A DNA stretch of 59,142 bases. It comes from Desulfuromonas sp. (GTDB lineage: Bacteria > Desulfobacterota > Desulfuromonadia > Desulfuromonadales > UBA2294). Shown in pieces: positions 42,702-52,453 of this stretch. Within the stretch, counting starts at the first letter, position 1. Every line of letters starts with the position of its first letter. The notes under the pieces are model-generated. The model was not told the DNA's origin, did not search any database, and saw nothing but the letters and a program-made list of their open reading frames with translations. The position numbers were made by a program, and so were the translations under genes. The stretch lies in NCBI GenBank assembly GCA_002869615.1, contig PKUH01000013.1:1-59142 (forward strand). The letters run 5' to 3'.

Positions 42702-43499
42702 TTATGGCTGGTCTTTCTTGAGTTGATCAATGCGATCAATGAAACGACGCCAGGTGAGGGTCATGCGCCGCGCCAATCGGATCATTAACCTGTCGATAAA
42801 CGTCGTTCCCTTGCCGCTTTTTTTCTTCTCGACCAACCTGAGATTCCGTTTGCTGTCGAGATCTTCAGTATTGACCTGCAACGCTTTATTTAGCCAGGCC
42901 AGAGCGGTATCGTAGTTTTTGAGCATGGCCCACGAGACCCCGAGCTGACGCATGGCATCATAATCCTCGGCACAGCTGGCAATTGCCTGCTCATACCAGT
43001 TGATCGCTTCGCGATCATTGCCGAGCTTGGAATAACAGACCCCGATCTGACGGAGGGAGTCATTGTCGTCTGATTTGACGGCAACAGCTTTTTTGAACCA
43101 GCTGATGGCCCGGCTCTCCCGTCCCTTTGCCGAAAAGAAGAGACCGAGACTGCGTAGCGTATCGGCATTGCGGGGATCGAGTTCAAGGGCTTTATTGAAG
43201 AGACGGTGGGCTTTGGCGAACCGTTCATCCATCAGGTATCCGCCACCAAGGTTGCGCAGGAGAAAAGGGTCCTCCGGTGCTTCCTTGACCCCTTCTGACA
43301 ACAGCAACTGCCGCGCTCGATGATCGCCGCGCAGATAGAGCGCCGCTTCGGCCTGGAAGAAGAGATTGTAAGCCTGATCGTCGGCCGAGGCCTCAAGAGC
43401 CTGGTTGAGAAGTTTTTCCGCTTCTTCTCTTCTGCCCAGATCCATCAGGTTGTCAATGGACGAGCTCAGGCTGCGCAACTCCTCCCGTGTCACACTCAT
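42702..43499 (-). CDS. TPR-repeat protein
   Basis: A 265-residue protein with about six tetratricopeptide repeats (NLGGGYLMDERFAKAHRLFN, SLGLFFSAKGRESRAISWFK, QIGVCYSKLGNDREAINWYE, QLGVSWAMLKNYDTALAWLN). A basic C-terminal tail follows (RLMIRLARRMTLTWRRFI). TPRs mediate protein contacts. The start at 43499 has GGGGAG upstream and lies 12 bases after the sigma-54 activator gene, so it may be a partner of that regulator. Confidence 0.88.
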   Translation of the reverse strand: MSVTREELRSLSSSIDNLMDLGRREEAEKLLNQALEASADDQAYNLFFQAEAALYLRGDHRARQLLLSEGVKEAPEDPFLLRNLGGGYLMDERFAKAHRLFNKALELDPRNADTLRSLGLFFSAKGRESRAISWFKKAVAVKSDDNDSLRQIGVCYSKLGNDREAINWYEQAIASCAEDYDAMRQLGVSWAMLKNYDTALAWLNKALQVNTEDLDSKRNLRLVEKKKSGKGTTFIDRLMIRLARRMTLTWRRFIDRIDQLKKDQP

Positions 43500-43510
43500 G
43501 CCGCTCCCCA

Positions 43511-45187
43511 TTATTTCATATTCTCAAGTCCGGCTTGTTTGACCCATCGCCAGAGTGTCGTCCGTGAAACGCCAAGCTCTTCCGCAGCTCCGATGCGGTT
43601 GCCCCGATGTCGGTCCAGAACCTCGGCCAGCAGGCCCGGGTTAAAGGCCTTGTTTGCACGCGGTAAGTTGTCGCACTCCCCAAGGTTGTTGCGAAACAGG
43701 TTTTCCGGTACATGCTCAAGACCAACCTCGTCTCCCTTGCAGAGGATTACCGCCTGCTCCATCAGGTTGAGCAGCTCCCGGACGTTGCCGGGAAAGTCGT
43801 ACGACAAAATCAGTCGCATCAGGTCGGGAGAGACCGCCTTGATCCGTTTGTTGTAAAGGGCATTGAAGCGCTGCATCGCCATGTCGATGAGCAGGGGGAT
43901 ATCTTCCCGGCGCTCCCTCAATGGCGGGATGTTGAGCGTCACCGTATTGATCCGGAACAGGAGGTCCTGGCGGAATGTTCCTTGCGCTACCATCTGCTCG
44001 AGGTTGCGATGCGTTGCGGTAATGAACCGGACATCGGCCTGCAGGGTCTCTTTGCCGCCCACCGGCTGGAATTCCCGGTTTTCAAGGACCCGCAGTAACT
44101 TGACTTGCAGTGAAAGCGGCAAATCGCCGACTTCATCAAGGAAAAATGTACCGCCCTGGCAGAGCTCGAGCCGGCCGGGCCTGTCCTCGTCGGCACCGGT
44201 ATATGCTCCCTTGCGGACACCGAAGATTTCCGCTTCGAGAAGGTTCTCCGGCAGGGCGCCGCAGTTGATGATGATCAAAGGACCGACCCGGCGTGGGCTT
44301 AATTCATGAATCGCCCGGGCAAACAGCTCTTTGCCGGTGCCGCTGTCGCCATGGATAAAGACAGTCGCTTCGCTGGACGAAATGTCGTTGACGATTTCAA
44401 AAAGGCGCCGCATCGTCGGATTGCGGCTGACCATATTTTCAAAAGCGTATTTCTTCTGGATCTCTTCTTTCAGGGTATAGACCATGGAGAGGTCGCGCAT
44501 TGATTCGACGGCCCCGACAATATTGCCATCTTCATCTTCGAGCGTCGAAGCGCTGATCGAGACCGGCTTGCAGTGTCCCTCGTTGTCAATGATCTGGACT
44601 TCTCGATTAATGACAGGTTGACCCGTCTCCATCGCTTCGCGAACCGGACAGCCGTTTTTGCAGACAGAGGAGTGGAATATCTCCTGGCAGGGGCGACCGA
44701 CCGCTTCGCTGTAGGGGATTCCGGTCATCTCTTCGGCCGCCTTGTTGTAGGTCCAGATGCGCATGTCCCTGTCGACGGTGAATATGCCGTCAGCCACGCT
44801 GTTGACGATGGTGTTGATGTGTCGGCGGCTTCTGATTGTTTCAACGCCGCCGACAAAATTCCCCGCGGAATCATATAGGATCGAGGCACTGATGGTGATC
44901 GGTATGCGCTTGCCGTCCTTGCGCTTGATTGACATGATCCGGTTATGGATGGTTGTGTGTTTTTCTTTCGCCTCGAGGAGAGGACATTCCTCCTTGCAGA
45001 GATCGGAACAGAACACTTCATGGCAATACCGCCCTAAAACCTCTTCACACTTAAAGCCGGTGAGCGATGCCGCCGCTGTATTGAATGCGGAAATACGCAT
45101 CTCCTGGTCTACGACAAAAATGCCGTCAGGAAGGGAATCCATCATGCTGATGCAATCGAAGTTGCCGATTCCTCTGAAATGTGCCAT
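43511..45187 (-). CDS. Sigma-54-dependent activator with two Cys-rich PAS domains
   Basis: A 558-residue enhancer-binding protein. Two PAS domains cover about residues 12-120 and 125-235; each carries a Cys cluster (YCHEVFCSDLCKEECPL and CQEIFHSSVCKNGCPV), which suggests a metal or redox sensor. The AAA+ domain has Walker A GDSGTGKELFARAIH, a sigma-54 contact loop GAYTGA (Tyr in place of the usual Phe) and FFLDEVGDLPLSLQ. A Fis-type helix-turn-helix ends the protein (RIGAAEELGVSRTTLWRWVK). The start at 45187 has GGAGGA ten bases upstream; 18 more codons are open. It lies next to cbcL and may control the palindrome-marked promoter near 48850. Confidence 0.92.
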   Translation of the reverse strand: MAHFRGIGNFDCISMMDSLPDGIFVVDQEMRISAFNTAAASLTGFKCEEVLGRYCHEVFCSDLCKEECPLLEAKEKHTTIHNRIMSIKRKDGKRIPITISASILYDSAGNFVGGVETIRSRRHINTIVNSVADGIFTVDRDMRIWTYNKAAEEMTGIPYSEAVGRPCQEIFHSSVCKNGCPVREAMETGQPVINREVQIIDNEGHCKPVSISASTLEDEDGNIVGAVESMRDLSMVYTLKEEIQKKYAFENMVSRNPTMRRLFEIVNDISSSEATVFIHGDSGTGKELFARAIHELSPRRVGPLIIINCGALPENLLEAEIFGVRKGAYTGADEDRPGRLELCQGGTFFLDEVGDLPLSLQVKLLRVLENREFQPVGGKETLQADVRFITATHRNLEQMVAQGTFRQDLLFRINTVTLNIPPLRERREDIPLLIDMAMQRFNALYNKRIKAVSPDLMRLILSYDFPGNVRELLNLMEQAVILCKGDEVGLEHVPENLFRNNLGECDNLPRANKAFNPGLLAEVLDRHRGNRIGAAEELGVSRTTLWRWVKQAGLENMK

Positions 45188-45241
45188 CGAGAGAGTTCCT
45201 CCGTCATGTGTTGACGCTTCAGAATACATCGTAGGCAGCAT

Positions 45242-45440: not shown

Positions 45441-47282
45441 TCAGGCGAAGAAAGCAATAAACATACAGAAAATCAGGACCAGGCCGGTAAAGACCGCCAG
45501 GAAGCCGAATCCTTTAAAAATGAAATCGTAAAGGACACTGCTCTGCTTCTCCATAAGGAAGTTTTCGGTGATGCCCAGCTCTTCGTATCGTTTCCACTGG
45601 TCACCCCGCTCCTCCATCAGTTCCTCTTTGCTGACTTCGCCGTTAAAGATGACAAAATCCATCGGGAACTTCTCGGGGCGTCCGTGGGTATTGAAGAAAT
45701 GGACGGTAAAGATAAAACCGGTCGCCAGCAGTGCTTCATCCGAATGGATGATCGTTGCCACATTGAGCATCCATCCCGGCAGGAAGTGCCCGAAGAACTC
45801 CGGAAACCAGAGCATGAGGCCGGAGCCGCCGATGGCGAACATACCCCAGAAGACAGCGAGGAAGTCGAACTTTTCCCAGTAGGTCCAGCGCTCGAAGCTC
45901 GGTTTCGGGCCCTTGAAGAAGAACCATTTCACCATTCCGATAATGTCGCTGATGTCGCGCAGGTTCGGCATCAGGGAGTCGGGACCGAACAGCTTCTGCA
46001 GAAAGTGTCCCTTGACATCTTTGCGGATGAACAGGAAGTCGATGCTCATCCAGAGCGCACCGAGGAAATAGTAAAAGGTCAGAATCGCGCAACCGCGATG
46101 GATCAAGCCGGCATAATGAACGCCGCCGTAGAACGACATCAGGGTTTTGGCCCAGACCTGGTCGCTGAACTTGAGGGGGAGCCCGGTCAGTGAAAGGCCG
46201 AGGAAGCTGATAATGACCGTCACGTGCAGCAGGATGTGGCGCATTTTGAAACGGGAGTAGACCTTGTGGGCGTCGGGGTCGATGTGCGCGCGACCCTCAA
46301 TCAAGGCTTTCTTCTTCTCCCGGTTTTCTACAAAACCACGGAACATCCAGAGTAGAGAATGAATCCAGAAAAATGTGAATGTGCCGATCAGTAGCCCCGA
46401 CATGCCCATGAAGGTCCAGTAGAGGATGGGATATTTTTCACTATCGCTGTGATCGCCGTGAGCGTAGTACATGCTGAAAAATTCCGAGGCATCCGGGTGG
46501 CATTGTTGGCAGACTCCCTGAATGTTTGCCTCGTTAATCGTTGACTTCGGGTTAGCCTCGGGCAAGACATTGTGTGCCGTGTGGCAGTCGGCACATCCGG
46601 CGTTCTGATCGGGAAAGCCGAGCATGTAGCCCTTGCCGTGATAGCTCTCGAGGTAGGTCTCAACGGCATTCGGATTGACCCCGTTGCGTTCCATCATGTC
46701 ATGGTTGTCGTGGCAAGGGATGCAGGTCGAGGAGTAGAATAATTTTCCCTCATTGCTGGTCCCGGGTTTGATCTCCTGGATCTCATGCAGGCCATGACAG
46801 CTGCTGCAGTCGGGCGCGTCGGCGTTGCCGGCCAGCAGGCTTTCGCCGTGGATCGAGTTCATGAAGCCATCCATGTCGTCGTGGCATTCGACACAGATGG
46901 TTACGCTGGCCCTTTTGTCGACATCCGGGGTGCGGTGGATATCGGTGTGGCAGGAAGTGCAGCTGACTTCGTTGGTGAAGTGGACACTGTCAATATATTC
47001 GGCCATCACCTTGGTGTGGCAGCGATCGCATTTGACATCGTCAATATCGGCTTCGCCTTCCATGTGCTTGTCGAGCTGCATCCCGGAGAGATGGCAGCTG
47101 GTGCAGCCATTCCCGCCGTGTGCAGAGGCGACAAAATCTTCCGCGCTGACAAGGTCATCATGGCAGTCGAGGCATGCCGAAGAGTCGACCATTGATTTCG
47201 GTCCCGCTGCCAGGGCCTCACTGGACACGCCCGTAAGCACGAAGGCCAGCAAAAATAGTGTGAACAATAATGAGTTACGCAT
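45441..47282 (-). CDS. cbcL: CbcL-like inner-membrane cytochrome: nonaheme c domain fused to diheme b domain
   Basis: A 613-residue protein. A signal peptide (LLFTLFLLAFVLTGVSSEAL) precedes a periplasmic domain with nine CxxCH heme c motifs (CLDCH, CTSCH, CDRCH, CTSCH, CVECH, CSSCH, CIPCH, CADCH, CQQCH). From about residue 285 a membrane domain of the HydC/FdnI cytochrome b type follows, with paired His (RHILLHVTVIISFLG, GLIHRGCAILTFYYF, FTVHFFNTHG). In Geobacter sulfurreducens CbcL takes electrons from menaquinol to periplasmic cytochromes for low-potential metal and electrode respiration; I infer the same role here, with the c7 protein at 52187 as acceptor. The start at 47282 has AGGAGAAG upstream and overlaps the zinc-finger/HTH gene by eight bases. 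Confidence 0.9.
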   Translation of the reverse strand: MRNSLLFTLFLLAFVLTGVSSEALAAGPKSMVDSSACLDCHDDLVSAEDFVASAHGGNGCTSCHLSGMQLDKHMEGEADIDDVKCDRCHTKVMAEYIDSVHFTNEVSCTSCHTDIHRTPDVDKRASVTICVECHDDMDGFMNSIHGESLLAGNADAPDCSSCHGLHEIQEIKPGTSNEGKLFYSSTCIPCHDNHDMMERNGVNPNAVETYLESYHGKGYMLGFPDQNAGCADCHTAHNVLPEANPKSTINEANIQGVCQQCHPDASEFFSMYYAHGDHSDSEKYPILYWTFMGMSGLLIGTFTFFWIHSLLWMFRGFVENREKKKALIEGRAHIDPDAHKVYSRFKMRHILLHVTVIISFLGLSLTGLPLKFSDQVWAKTLMSFYGGVHYAGLIHRGCAILTFYYFLGALWMSIDFLFIRKDVKGHFLQKLFGPDSLMPNLRDISDIIGMVKWFFFKGPKPSFERWTYWEKFDFLAVFWGMFAIGGSGLMLWFPEFFGHFLPGWMLNVATIIHSDEALLATGFIFTVHFFNTHGRPEKFPMDFVIFNGEVSKEELMEERGDQWKRYEELGITENFLMEKQSSVLYDFIFKGFGFLAVFTGLVLIFCMFIAFFA

Positions 47283-48021
47283 CTTCTTCTCCTGTTGTTT
47301 TAGATGGACTCTGGACCAGTAACTCTGTGATCTGTTGCCGGGCCGCCTCCATGTTTTTAATGTTGTTTTTGAACTCCATCTCCCTGAGATAGAGACGAAA
47401 ATGATTTTTGAACCCGCCGCAATATGAGGAGAGGCGGTTTTTTGTGTTTTTCCAGAAAACCCGGGCTTTTTCTCTGGCGCTGTTGCCGGGCAGGCAATTG
47501 ATGCGATCAAGCTGCAGCTCGTCAAGCGCCTTGCGATCTGCTGCGATAATCCACCCGGCAACCGAGGATGGGTCGAGCCGCGCATGTTCTCCATCTGCTG
47601 TTTCATTCGTAAGCAGCAGTTCCATTTCAGACTCCTGATGAATCAGGCAACCGATCAAAACAGCATTACGTCTCTTTTCGCTTATTCCGGTAGCGACAAA
47701 TAAATTTGGTGAGATTTCAGAGCTGCCGTAACTGCGCCGCAGATATCTTTCGCGGTCTGCGGCTATCAATTCGCGAATGCGGCCATAATAGAGATGAACT
47801 GTCTTCAGATTCAGGCCTGTCTCCTCGGCAATCTGTGAGGCCGGGTTTCCTGAGACAAAACCGGAAACAATCGCTTCCATTGCCTCAGGAGTCAGTCGTG
47901 ACCGGCGCCGCGTCGGAGAGAACTTCAGCCCACAGGCGCTGCACTTATTACGACCATCGGCCAGGTTGTAAAGATGGTCATTTCCGCATTGAGGACATGT
48001 CGTTAACGATTTTTCAGTCAT
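47275..48021 (-). CDS. Zinc-finger/HTH protein derived from an IS1595-type transposase, likely regulator
   Basis: A 248-residue protein. A four-Cys zinc finger (Cys9, Cys12, Cys27, Cys30) is followed by a helix-turn-helix (SGNPASQIAEETGLNLKTVH). The C-terminus has FWKNTKNRLSSYCGGFKNHF and YLREMEFKNN, like the end of IS1595/ISXO2 transposases. The central part is short and I see no DDE catalytic triad. It ends inside the cbcL start (8-base overlap), so it is translated together with cbcL. I infer a domesticated transposase now serving as regulator of the cytochrome. A 12-bp palindrome lies directly before its start. Confidence 0.75.
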   Translation of the reverse strand: MTEKSLTTCPQCGNDHLYNLADGRNKCSACGLKFSPTRRRSRLTPEAMEAIVSGFVSGNPASQIAEETGLNLKTVHLYYGRIRELIAADRERYLRRSYGSSEISPNLFVATGISEKRRNAVLIGCLIHQESEMELLLTNETADGEHARLDPSSVAGWIIAADRKALDELQLDRINCLPGNSAREKARVFWKNTKNRLSSYCGGFKNHFRLYLREMEFKNNIKNMEAARQQITELLVQSPSKTTGEEDA

Positions 48022-48029
48022 AGTCCGGT

Positions 48030-48041
48030 CCAGTTAACTGG
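48030..48041. promoter_or_regulatory. Palindromic operator candidate before the zinc-finger/HTH gene
   Basis: CCAGTTAACTGG is a perfect 12-base palindrome ending nine bases before the start codon. A second GTTAAC palindrome (CGTTAACG, 48001-48008) lies just inside the gene. This is where an autoregulating DNA-binding protein might bind. Confidence 0.45.
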
Positions 48042-48061: not shown

Positions 48062-48087
48062 AAAAAGACAGGGGCTTTTGACCCCTG
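48062..48087 (-). terminator. Intrinsic terminator after the 48-residue membrane protein
   Basis: On the minus strand CAGGGG pairs with CCCCTG around TCAAAAG and is followed by TCTTTTTA. It separates the small-protein transcript from the zinc-finger/HTH-cbcL genes 41 bases downstream; partial readthrough is possible. Confidence 0.75.
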
Positions 48088-48106
48088 CCCGGGTGGCCCT
48101 GATGGC

Positions 48107-48253
48107 CTAACTGATTAACTTGCCGGCGATGTGGCTCAGTGCGGGCCAGGCCTGAACCAGGCTTGCGCCGACAGCGAACATTCCCGTTACAAAGAGCATC
48201 GGTCCGATGTATTCCCGGTCATCGAGATCCGAATGTGCTTGCTTGTTCTTCAT
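48107..48253 (-). CDS. Small membrane protein, 48 residues
   Basis: The sequence begins MKNKQAHSDLDDREYIGPML and continues into one membrane helix (FVTGMFAVGASLVQAW). The start has AAGGAG six bases upstream. The short length, one helix and position between similar tiny genes and cbcL suggest an accessory subunit for a membrane complex. I do not know a family. Confidence 0.7.
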   Translation of the reverse strand: MKNKQAHSDLDDREYIGPMLFVTGMFAVGASLVQAWPALSHIAGKLIS

Positions 48254-48291
48254 GACATTCTCCTTCACGTAATGTGTACGTCGATGCGGGT

Positions 48292-48444
48292 TCATGTGAA
48301 AAGGTTGACAATGGCTCCGCCCATGCAGAGAACTGACCATACGGCAAAGGTGCAGATGAAGACGGCGATCGAGCCGTATACGCCGATGATCCCTTTAGCA
48401 GTTGCCTCTTCCATCAAGCTTGAATAATTCTGTTTTGTTTTCAT
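48292..48444 (-). CDS. Small membrane protein, 50 residues
   Basis: The frame begins MKTKQNYSSLMEEATAKGII and ends with one membrane helix (SIAVFICTFAVWSVLCMGGA). An excellent AAAGGAG site lies upstream of ATG 48444. It is separated by 38 bases from the next small gene. Together with the 48-residue protein it resembles the tiny single-helix subunits found with respiratory complexes. Confidence 0.72.
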   Translation of the reverse strand: MKTKQNYSSLMEEATAKGIIGVYGSIAVFICTFAVWSVLCMGGAIVNLFT

Positions 48445-48483
48445 TTTTTCTCTCCTTTCATTCGGGTGTATGTTGTGAACTGT

Positions 48484-48789
48484 TCACATGCAGAGGTTTT
48501 TCATAATGGTCTGGGCGCGTTTACTTCCCTGCTCCAGTACCGTGATTCCCTCGTTGGCGACTTTTTCAATTAATGGCATTGATTCCGGGTCGCGGCAGAC
48601 AACACCGTAAACACCATTTTCTTCGAGCCACTTATGCAGCTCCGGGTTCTTGTTCTGGTCCCAGACCTGGAGCTGAATATCCTGAAGGCACTCCATGACC
48701 GTATCGTAATTCACAATAAAAAAGATTCGCTCAAGGCCTGTCGTGCTGTGGTAAAGATTTCCGTAGTAAGGAACAGCCAGCGTCGTCAT
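48484..48789 (-). CDS. NifX/NafY-like small soluble protein (tentative)
   Basis: A 101-residue protein with the pattern LAVPYYGNLYHSTTGLERIF near the start and YGVVCRDPESMPLIEKVANE followed by GITVL. This resembles the fold of NifX/dinitrogenase cofactor-binding proteins, but the match is by eye only. AAGGAG lies ten bases before the start. It is first in the small-protein group upstream of cbcL, after a possible sigma-54 promoter. Confidence 0.6.
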   Translation of the reverse strand: MTTLAVPYYGNLYHSTTGLERIFFIVNYDTVMECLQDIQLQVWDQNKNPELHKWLEENGVYGVVCRDPESMPLIEKVANEGITVLEQGSKRAQTIMKNLCM

Positions 48790-48840
48790 TGTTTTATTGC
48801 TCCTTGATCTGAAACATTAACAATCTTTAACTATAACTAA

Positions 48841-48856
48841 TACAACAGGCATGCCA
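48841..48856 (-). promoter_or_regulatory. Possible sigma-54 promoter for the small-protein group
   Basis: On the minus strand TGGCAT, five bases, TTGT resembles TGGCAC-N5-TTGC with two mismatches, one of them in the -12 GC. The start codon of the NifX-like gene is about 50 bases downstream and a strong palindrome lies about 100 bases upstream, a classic enhancer distance. Confidence 0.4.
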
Positions 48857-48947
48857 TTATCTGGAAATAAATGAATTTTCTTTAATTAATCAGTAAAAAC
48901 AGTGGCTTATAAAATTAAAAAAAATTAAAAAAAGATTAAGGAGAAAT

Positions 48948-48971
48948 GCCATGTTTCAGGTGAAACATGGC
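48948..48971. promoter_or_regulatory. Perfect palindrome, candidate activator-binding site
   Basis: GCCATGTTTCA and TGAAACATGGC are exact inverted 11-mers with two bases between. The half-site TGAAACA recurs at 48812, and related TGAAAC words lie at 49045 and 49066. This looks like an upstream activating sequence for a Fis-type regulator. Confidence 0.55.
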
Positions 48972-49033
48972 CAATATGGTAATTAAAGATCAGATGACCG
49001 CGTAAGATATTGAAATTACGATTGAATGCGGGA

Positions 49034-49073
49034 TGGAACAGGCGTGAAACGAAAAGTGGAACATTTGAAACAT
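49034..49073. repeat. Direct repeat of a TGGAACA...TGAAAC word
   Basis: TGGAACAGGCGTGAAAC at 49034-49050 and TGGAACATTTGAAACA at 49058-49073 are two copies of one word, containing the same TGAAAC half-site as the palindrome at 48948. Probably further binding sites. Confidence 0.4.
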
Positions 49074-49134: not shown

Positions 49135-49653
49135 TCAGTGAGGAAAGCGGGATCGGGAACTGTTCATAATCCGTTCAACGAGAAGACCGGTTGGAACGGC
49201 AAACAGGAGAGTCAGGAGAGAGCGTCCCAGGGAAAATGGCCAACCGAGAAAACCGACTTCCAGCGGGATCATTGGCAGCTTGACGGCATAAGCGGCAAGG
49301 ACAATCGTGACCACGGCCCAGCGGGCTCCCTGGTTACGTATCGTCATGAGGAGCGGGAATATAATATAGGGTGGCCCGATCAACAAGGTGCCGCAGAGCA
49401 TTGCAACCAGCAGCGCCTTTGGTCCGCTCTTCTCGCCGAGGAGTCGGGATACCATGTCGCGACTGATCCAGGTCTGGACCAGCCCGACCAGCCCCATGAC
49501 GGCGAGCACGAGCAGGGAAACCGATATGAGCAACTGGCCTCCGGATTGCAGCGCGGTCCAGGCTCTCTCCGGACTGAGCCAGGTGGCAATCAGGTATAAC
49601 AGGAGGGTCAGGCTGACCAGCCACTGCGAAACGAACCAGCGCAGGATCATCAT
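49135..49653 (-). CDS. Half-size permease, second half of a split pair
   Basis: A 172-residue protein with about five membrane helices. It has the motif LLIGPPYIIFPLLMTIRNQG and a late KLPMIPLEVGFLGW. The upstream gene has the matching motif AIGPPVAAFPIAGSFIETG and SLPVEAHVFGWKF, so the two halves are homologous. They resemble the two halves of DUF318/ArsP-type permeases. The starts and stops overlap as ATGA. Substrate unknown. Confidence 0.78.
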   Translation of the reverse strand: MMILRWFVSQWLVSLTLLLYLIATWLSPERAWTALQSGGQLLISVSLLVLAVMGLVGLVQTWISRDMVSRLLGEKSGPKALLVAMLCGTLLIGPPYIIFPLLMTIRNQGARWAVVTIVLAAYAVKLPMIPLEVGFLGWPFSLGRSLLTLLFAVPTGLLVERIMNSSRSRFPH

Positions 49654-50132
49654 ATCAGCCCTCCGATCAACAGCCCGATCAGCAGGGCGGCGATAAAGGT
49701 GATGCTATTGCGCCAGAGCGCAAACTTCCATCCGAAAACGTGTGCCTCCACCGGCAGGGAGACGATGCCGACCGATACCCATGAAACAATGAAGGCGGCC
49801 GCGGCCGGTGGCCAGGCGCCGGTTTCGATGAACGAACCGGCAATCGGGAAAGCTGCGACCGGCGGCCCGATTGCGACCGCCCCGACAAGTGCTCCATTCA
49901 AAAGCGAGAGCAGGTGGTTATTATCACCGAGCCAGCCGCGAATTGACTCGGGGGGAACGAATTCATTAAAAAGGCCGATCAAGGCAAATATCGAAAGCAA
50001 AAGCGGCAGCATCCGCACCAGGGTCTGGCGCGCGGCCAGCAGACTGCTTCGGGTTTTTTCACGCTCCCGGCGGAAACCGAGTAGATAGAGGGCTGAAACA
50101 AGAACGAGATAGAAGAGTCCGGTTGCGAGCAT
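49650..50132 (-). CDS. Half-size permease, first half of a split pair
   Basis: A 160-residue membrane protein with a basic first loop (GFRREREKTRSSLLAARQTL) and the IGPPVAAFP motif in the middle. In DUF318-type permeases both halves are often in one polypeptide; here two genes with an ATGA overlap make them. The frame opens at an ATG at 50132. I see no helper gene that would name the substrate. Confidence 0.78.
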   Translation of the reverse strand: MLATGLFYLVLVSALYLLGFRREREKTRSSLLAARQTLVRMLPLLLSIFALIGLFNEFVPPESIRGWLGDNNHLLSLLNGALVGAVAIGPPVAAFPIAGSFIETGAWPPAAAAFIVSWVSVGIVSLPVEAHVFGWKFALWRNSITFIAALLIGLLIGGLI

Positions 50133-52186: not shown

Positions 52187-52453
52187 ATGAAAAAGATTAT
52201 TGTACTCGCAATGCTTCTTGCTTTCGTAAGTGTCAGCGCATTTGCTGCCGACGTTGTCACTTATGAAAACAAAAAAGGGAATGTCACTTTTGACCACAAG
52301 GCTCACCAGGAAAAGCTGGGTGATTGCGCCAAGTGTCATGAAGGGACTCCGGCCAAGATCGCCGTTGACAAAGACTTCGGTCACAAGACCTGCAAGGCTT
52401 GTCACAAAGATATGGGCGGTCCGACTAAATGTAACGACTGCCACAAAAAGTAA
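52187..52453 (+). CDS. ppcA: Triheme cytochrome c7 (PpcA family)
   Basis: An 88-residue precursor. The signal peptide MKKIIVLAMLLAFVSVSAFA is cut before ADVVTYENKKGNVTF. The 68-residue mature chain has three CxxCH motifs (CAKCH, CKACH, CNDCH) and extra His ligands (FDHKAHQ, FGHKTC), as in Desulfuromonas c7 and Geobacter PpcA. It is a soluble periplasmic electron shuttle between inner-membrane quinol oxidases such as CbcL and outer-membrane conduits. The gene is single and ends at a good terminator. Confidence 0.96.
   Translation: MKKIIVLAMLLAFVSVSAFAADVVTYENKKGNVTFDHKAHQEKLGDCAKCHEGTPAKIAVDKDFGHKTCKACHKDMGGPTKCNDCHKK

Follow-up and report, generated by a model that had tools for sequence, protein, structure and literature searches.

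The three small genes found upstream of cbcL in the window, i.e., the whole stretch of 59,142 nucleotides of Desulfuromonas sp. DNA analyzed here, constitute a real and conserved unit, which as far as could be searched is previously unnamed. Comparison with relatives gives strong support to the regulatory part of the unit, i.e., a sigma-54-type promoter preceded by an activator palindrome, which on this basis is considered highly probable. For the unit as a whole, the sequence comparisons make it moderately probable that it is an OrpR-like, probably redox-sensing sigma-54 unit, which would produce a NifX-like partner protein and an accessory pair of membrane proteins for menaquinol-cytochrome complexes.

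All genes of the locus are encoded on the minus strand. The first gene of the unit (48484-48789), defined by its open reading frame and Shine-Dalgarno sequence, encodes a soluble NifX-like protein of 101 residues, and is followed by sm50 (48292-48444) and sm48 (48107-48253), which encode predicted membrane proteins of 50 and 48 residues, respectively, each with one hydrophobic helix. Downstream of these genes are found reg (47275-48021), which encodes a Zn-ribbon and helix-turn-helix (HTH) protein, cbcL (45441-47282), the gene of a sigma-54 enhancer-binding protein (EBP) with PAS-PAS-AAA+-Fis HTH architecture (43511-45241) and that of a TPR protein (42702-43511), which occupies the same position in the related loci L032, L063, L064 and L067-L070. 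The strong ribosome sites that had been noted for the three small genes ahead of the regulator-cbcL pair are present; an AAGGAG sequence is located 10, 7 and 6 nucleotides ahead of the ATG of nifX-like, sm50 and sm48, respectively. That these are real genes is seen in close pairs of relatives, where the changes are mostly silent (dN 0-0.08 vs dS 0.5-2.3); sm50 belongs to a family that could be aligned, and purifying selection on it is seen in relatives. None of the three is named by a Pfam or NCBIfam model at a useful score, and Rfam and tRNA scans gave no matches.

The window CbcL displays a multiheme c-type domain with 9 CXXCH motifs and a membrane cytochrome b domain with about six predicted transmembrane helices (six counted for the domain), and thus resembles CbcL of Geobacter (G.) sulfurreducens (GSU0274), in which a multiheme c domain with 9 heme motifs is also joined to a b-type membrane domain. 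The low-potential role and characterization of CbcL are described in the Geobacter literature, where such a function has been established for the G. sulfurreducens protein alone and no mention of the small genes was found (PMC9129911, PMC6295460); nor was a description of the module or of the small proteins found elsewhere in the literature searched, in line with the original prediction. The window cbcL encodes the only CbcL found in its own genome, and the protein is 63-67% identical to those of module-bearing relatives and about 55-63% identical to other CbcLs of the Desulfuromonadia.

Conservation was first surveyed by searching for the NifX-like protein in 136 genomes of the order and then in wider loci. 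Other genera share a block composed of nifX-like, sm50, sm48, reg, cbcL, a gene for a 76-residue two-helix protein, the EBP and the TPR protein; an alternative order, with the EBP ahead of the block, is also found in relatives, and the 76-residue protein is missing from the window. A scan for CbcL gave 80 loci; those with the full block include Trichlorobacter thiogenes (L069) and Geobacter sp. UBA5730 (L070). Within a tree built from 82 CbcLs, all 18 that are accompanied by the block fall in one clade of 19 (SH-aLRT 100), and the window CbcL differs from that of G. sulfurreducens in belonging to this separate clade with an attached module. The module, i.e., NifX-like, sm50, sm48, reg and cbcL, is found in 18/18 clade loci with upstream sequence, compared to 0/63 of the other CbcLs; the remaining clade member, L123, is outside this count because its contig starts inside cbcL. 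The proposal that the small genes are conserved near cbcL is therefore borne out within this clade. The genomes that carry the module are few, and the hosts are mostly metal-respiring bacteria; the NifX-like protein is absent from the two nearest relatives examined, one of the same genus and one of the same family. Two half-size ArsP/SaoE-like permease genes are found upstream of the unit in the window (49135-50132), and homologues of these (66% and 55%) adjoin the cbcL of L123. A small three-heme cytochrome, PpcA/c7-like in size and number of motifs, is found a few kb from the unit (52187-52453).

A perfect 11-bp inverted repeat had been claimed upstream of the unit and is found at 48948-48971 as GCCATGTTTCA-GG-TGAAACATGGC, with arms that are 100% complementary and a core, TGTTTCAnnTGAAACA, for which no second occurrence was found in the 3.08-Mb genome. 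The further TGAAAC sites of that claim are half-sites at 48810, 49045-49050 and 49066-49071; the latter two are distal to the palindrome, and relatives display GTTGCA half-sites at a comparable distance. The palindrome of the relatives is GTTGCAnnTGCAAC, and the window variant GTTTCAnnTGAAAC is also unique in the 3.08-Mb genome. Sites of the GTTGCAnnTGCAAC type occur 27 times in 1.91 Mb of loci and only 3 of these are within called genes, while the remaining ones are mostly located upstream of nifX-like genes, with one found 88 bp before an sm48-family gene and one before a second EBP.

In relatives, a promoter of the form TGGCAC-N5-TTGGAATA is found 110-118 bp downstream of the palindrome. 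The more general element [CT]GGCA[CT]-N5-[TG]TG is found at this distance from 24 of 37 distinct palindromes, compared to 0.1 expected from the density of the element in the same DNA, and the promoter consensus is TTTGGCACG-N3-CTTGGAATA. A possible -24/-12 box had been proposed without coordinates; the best candidate in the window is TGGCATGCCTGTTGTA (48841-48856, minus strand), which is located 111 bp downstream of the palindrome, with the geometry seen in relatives and the spacing of 23 of their promoters. The GG at -24 (TGGCAC) is retained, as TGGCAT in the window and as TGGCA or CGGCA in relatives. The -12 element deviates from the sigma-54 consensus TTGCW, because GC is replaced by GT in the window (TTGTA) and by GG in 19/24 promoters (mostly TTGGA in relatives), and GC is never found there; the G. 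sulfurreducens RpoN consensus is TTGGCACGGTTTTTGCT, with GC at -12 (PMC2725144). The promoters with GG at -12 may define a sigma-54 subclass, of which we have met no earlier description. A second RpoN as the cause of this deviation was rejected, since a single rpoN was found in the genome, and a sigma-70 promoter was rejected on the basis of one weak match vs 1.7 expected by chance.

Very probably, the palindrome serves as the binding site of the EBP that is encoded downstream of cbcL. As an alternative, another regulator might bind there, for example the clustered reg product as a candidate DNA-binding protein, or the palindrome might function as an RNA hairpin, given its terminator-like score on the minus strand. 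However, EBP-nifX pairs without reg and cbcL display the same type of site at the same spacing, a separate conserved element is located before reg, and there is no U-run directly after the palindrome. The latter observation, together with the conserved spacing to the promoter, led to the rejection of a terminator, and we consider both variants of this explanation very unlikely.

Binding by the EBP is, on the other hand, consistent with the gene neighborhoods. The NifX-like and EBP genes are found at most 5 kb apart in 33/42 loci, and in 7 of the 9 cases without this linkage a contig or locus edge is close by. The EBP displays the architecture of an OrpR-like activator, i.e., PAS, AAA+ and Fis HTH domains, and its loop GAYTGA is of the GAFTGA type. 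A C-x8-C-x3-CP motif is found in the PAS region of 34/34 distinct EBPs, and in the window EBP it is present in both PAS domains. With this motif, the PAS domains would probably bind an Fe-S cluster or present redox-active thiols, and the motif is compatible with redox sensing by an Fe-S cluster. OrpR reportedly senses redox via an Fe-S cluster.

In Desulfovibrio (D.) vulgaris, the EBP DVU2106 and sigma-54 drive the orp genes, including those of NifX-family proteins, from palindromic sites, with the orp1 palindrome at -131 (PMC3897727, PMC6345978), and IHF is also part of this regulation (PMC3897727). When compared by description, the orp/DVU2106 (OrpR) system and the present loci share an adjacent one-component EBP, sigma-54 promoters, palindromes at about -90 to -130 and NifX-family genes; in the window, too, a NifX-family gene is adjacent and the predicted sigma-54 start is preceded, at about 110-130 bp, by a palindrome. 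The systems differ in that the genes found here encode membrane-protein pairs and cytochromes, while the orp operons encode MinD-like Fe-S ATPases, although some relatives of the window EBP do adjoin MinD/NUBPL ATPase genes. In the model favored here, the EBP (43511-45241) would bind to the palindrome at 48948-48971 and activate sigma-54 RNA polymerase some 110 bp further downstream (48856-48841). A nifX-sm50-sm48 transcript would begin just downstream of the -24/-12 element and lead to abundant production of the NifX-like protein together with the sm50/sm48 pair.

The recognition helix of the window EBP, LGVSRTTLWR, harbors a Ser that is found in 1/33 EBPs, at a position where the other 32 have Asp, Glu or Asn, and the window palindrome alone reads GTTTCA where other palindromes read GTTGCA (T for G). 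A second EBP of the same genome (contig C113) is 57% identical, has Asp in the helix and adjoins GTTGCA sites. Combinations of Ser with GTTTCA and of Asp with GTTGCA in one genome would be expected from two circuits insulated from each other, but because only a single correlated change is seen, the coupling of the helix residue to the site is suggestive only. A second nifX-like/sm48 unit of this genome is found on contig C94, where it adjoins an NrfD/FeS/cytochrome cluster. Contigs C113 and C94 each end where the other half of the unit is expected, without overlap, and are likely adjacent.

The original prediction had overlooked an intrinsic-terminator-like hairpin located between sm48 and reg (48066-48090, minus strand), in which a 10-pair stem is followed by TTTTT. 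The nine closest modules (L032, L063-L070) likewise have a hairpin and T-run behind sm48, no more than about 25 nucleotides past the stop, and among the ten closest modules, window included, the arms differ in sequence but still pair, where conservation is judged from the hairpin of each individual sequence. In the more distant modules L034, L036, L040 and L041 no clear terminator was found after sm48. Because the terminator is conserved, nifX-sm50-sm48 probably forms its own transcript with at most partial read-through into reg-cbcL, and the terminator may be an attenuator that lets part of the transcript, if any, run on and thereby sets the ratio of small proteins to CbcL. Of the proposed joint expression with cbcL, the shared neighborhood is thus retained while full co-expression is doubtful.

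The reg gene is found beside the module cbcLs examined. Its product has the Zn ribbon and HTH of IS1595-family transposases together with a segment from their C-terminus, but only short C-terminal stretches match, such that most of the DDE catalytic domain is missing, and the position beside cbcL is conserved. It is therefore likely a domesticated IS1595 transposase that serves as a regulator. Inspection revealed a palindrome, CCAGTTAACTGG, directly upstream of reg (48030-48041), which is part of the window's version of an ACCAG..CGGACC-type element seen, also by inspection, before reg in several relatives; this element is possibly reg's own operator. Distant reg-like Zn-ribbon/HTH genes are found in a different conserved cluster (L189-L196) together with a gene for a protein of about 575 residues and a 74-residue MoaD-like gene; this cluster may be one of an aldehyde oxidoreductase. 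Another locus, L197 (G102:C26), harbors reg-cbcL and an OrpR-like EBP with five sm48-type genes divided over both sides.

The small membrane proteins are characterized by the motifs F-x2-W-S-x2-C-x-G-G-A (sm50) and A-W-P-A-L-x-H-I (sm48; AWPALxH in the family alignment). Because the sm50 profile recovers sm48 members, the two belong to one family, which appears from profile searches to be undescribed and mostly confined to the class Desulfuromonadia. The sm48 profile matches in 64/277 genomes of the class, and among 395 genomes drawn from the phylum it matches only in this class, except for one marginal case; an sm50-type gene is also found in one MAG labeled Desulfobulbaceae (L071). A genome may harbor up to six copies, arranged in pairs or triples, which are found beside cbcL, beside genes of NrfD, 4Fe-4S proteins and cytochrome c7 together with NapC/NirT-type (ImcH-like) cytochromes, or alone. 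Stand-alone units display the same promoter type and palindrome as the nifX units. A third small-protein cluster in the genome of the window, L242 (G000:C108:90000-105000), has three copies and a palindrome and promoter of its own, spaced 115 bp apart.

This variation in setting bears on the earlier suggestion that the two single-helix proteins are structural subunits of a CbcL complex. A role as fixed subunits, similar to that of CcoQ or CydX, would agree with the exclusive tie of the module to one CbcL clade and with the single-helix size and strict conservation; sm50 and sm48 resemble CcoQ and CydX in size, in having one helix and in their link to a membrane electron-transfer complex. They differ in lacking a Pfam or NCBIfam sequence relation to these proteins, in being paired and in also occurring alone. 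Because homologous pairs stand alone or beside NrfD/FeS and NapC/ImcH-like genes, the small proteins are not specific for CbcL, and a role as fixed subunits is made less likely by pairs with no cytochrome gene in the vicinity, by the terminator ahead of reg-cbcL and by the fact that canonical CbcLs manage without small proteins. A function solely as dedicated CbcL subunits is ruled out by the stand-alone copies and the terminator, and fixed subunits in general are regarded as rather unlikely.

If, on the other hand, the small proteins were membrane-stress or membrane-shaping factors deployed at redox changes, the link to cbcL would reflect shared regulation only. Such a function would fit with genomes that harbor multiple copies, some of which are driven by the same type of promoter without being tied to cytochrome genes, and with the separation by the terminator of small-gene transcription from that of cbcL. 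Many of the clusters examined adjoin genes of membrane menaquinol-cytochrome complexes, however, and no homologue with such a function is known, which leaves this explanation, too, on the unlikely side. Small hydrophobic helices, often in tandem copies, are also reminiscent of TisB-like toxin peptides, which would depolarize the membrane and lower the proton motive force, but the good Shine-Dalgarno sites, the conserved promoter with positive regulation, the strong purifying selection and the operon shared with NifX and cytochrome genes are at odds with a toxin, and an antisense RNA or antitoxin was not seen; such a function is extremely improbable.

We favor a model in which sm50 and sm48 would work together in the cytoplasmic membrane, either as accessory subunits or as organizers of menaquinol-cytochrome c complexes, i.e., CbcL here and NrfD/FeS/cytochrome and ImcH-like complexes elsewhere. 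A more specific version, which we regard as distinctly unlikely, is that sm50 and sm48 represent a new class of paired single-helix proteins, many copies of which would assemble in the cytoplasmic membrane and gather or shape these complexes. They would be made in excess over CbcL via the terminator, and their expression would be controlled by a sigma-54 activator that senses redox by an Fe-S cluster and whose promoters have GG instead of GC at -12. If this version were true, the activator would switch this branch of low-potential respiration according to the redox potential. How the redox potential is sensed and how inner-membrane quinol oxidases are switched in electrode- and metal-respiring bacteria is an open question in the field, for which the locus offers a concrete candidate circuit (activator, operator and promoter) for one CbcL branch, found also in the cultivable Trichlorobacter. 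In addition, the locus defines an unannotated protein family largely limited to one bacterial class and a candidate sigma-54 promoter subclass with GG at -12.

For the first gene product, the original prediction had proposed a NifX-like cofactor carrier. The window protein alone gave no Pfam match, while PF02579 (Nitro_FeMo-Co) matches 8/17 aligned relatives. The profile of the NifX-like proteins matches the PDB entries 1o13, 2yx6 and 1t3v, and weakly or marginally the ORP entry 2wfb; an AF2 model (pLDDT 82) has 2yx6 as its best PDB match. The protein is thus predicted to have the Nitro_FeMo-Co fold and resembles the NifX/NafY/Orp8 superfamily (PF02579) in fold and, weakly, in profile. It differs from the superfamily in lacking the FGHCE and CDH ligand motifs, which its canonical neighbors carry and which were defined for the MrpORP domain and Orp-type metal proteins (PMC6345978). 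The NifX-like character given in the proposal is thus supported by the predicted fold, while the carrier role is unsupported, and a standard metal carrier was rejected because of the missing ligands. The NifX-like type stays with the EBP type in clusters without cytochromes, and the two also occur together where MinD/NUBPL-like ATPases and an exporter of heavy metals are encoded. Because the type accompanies the EBP elsewhere and the ligands are missing, the NifX-like protein is more likely part of a regulatory or assembly circuit than a cofactor carrier specific for CbcL or a metal carrier of known type, i.e., it would be a circuit partner in assembly or feedback.
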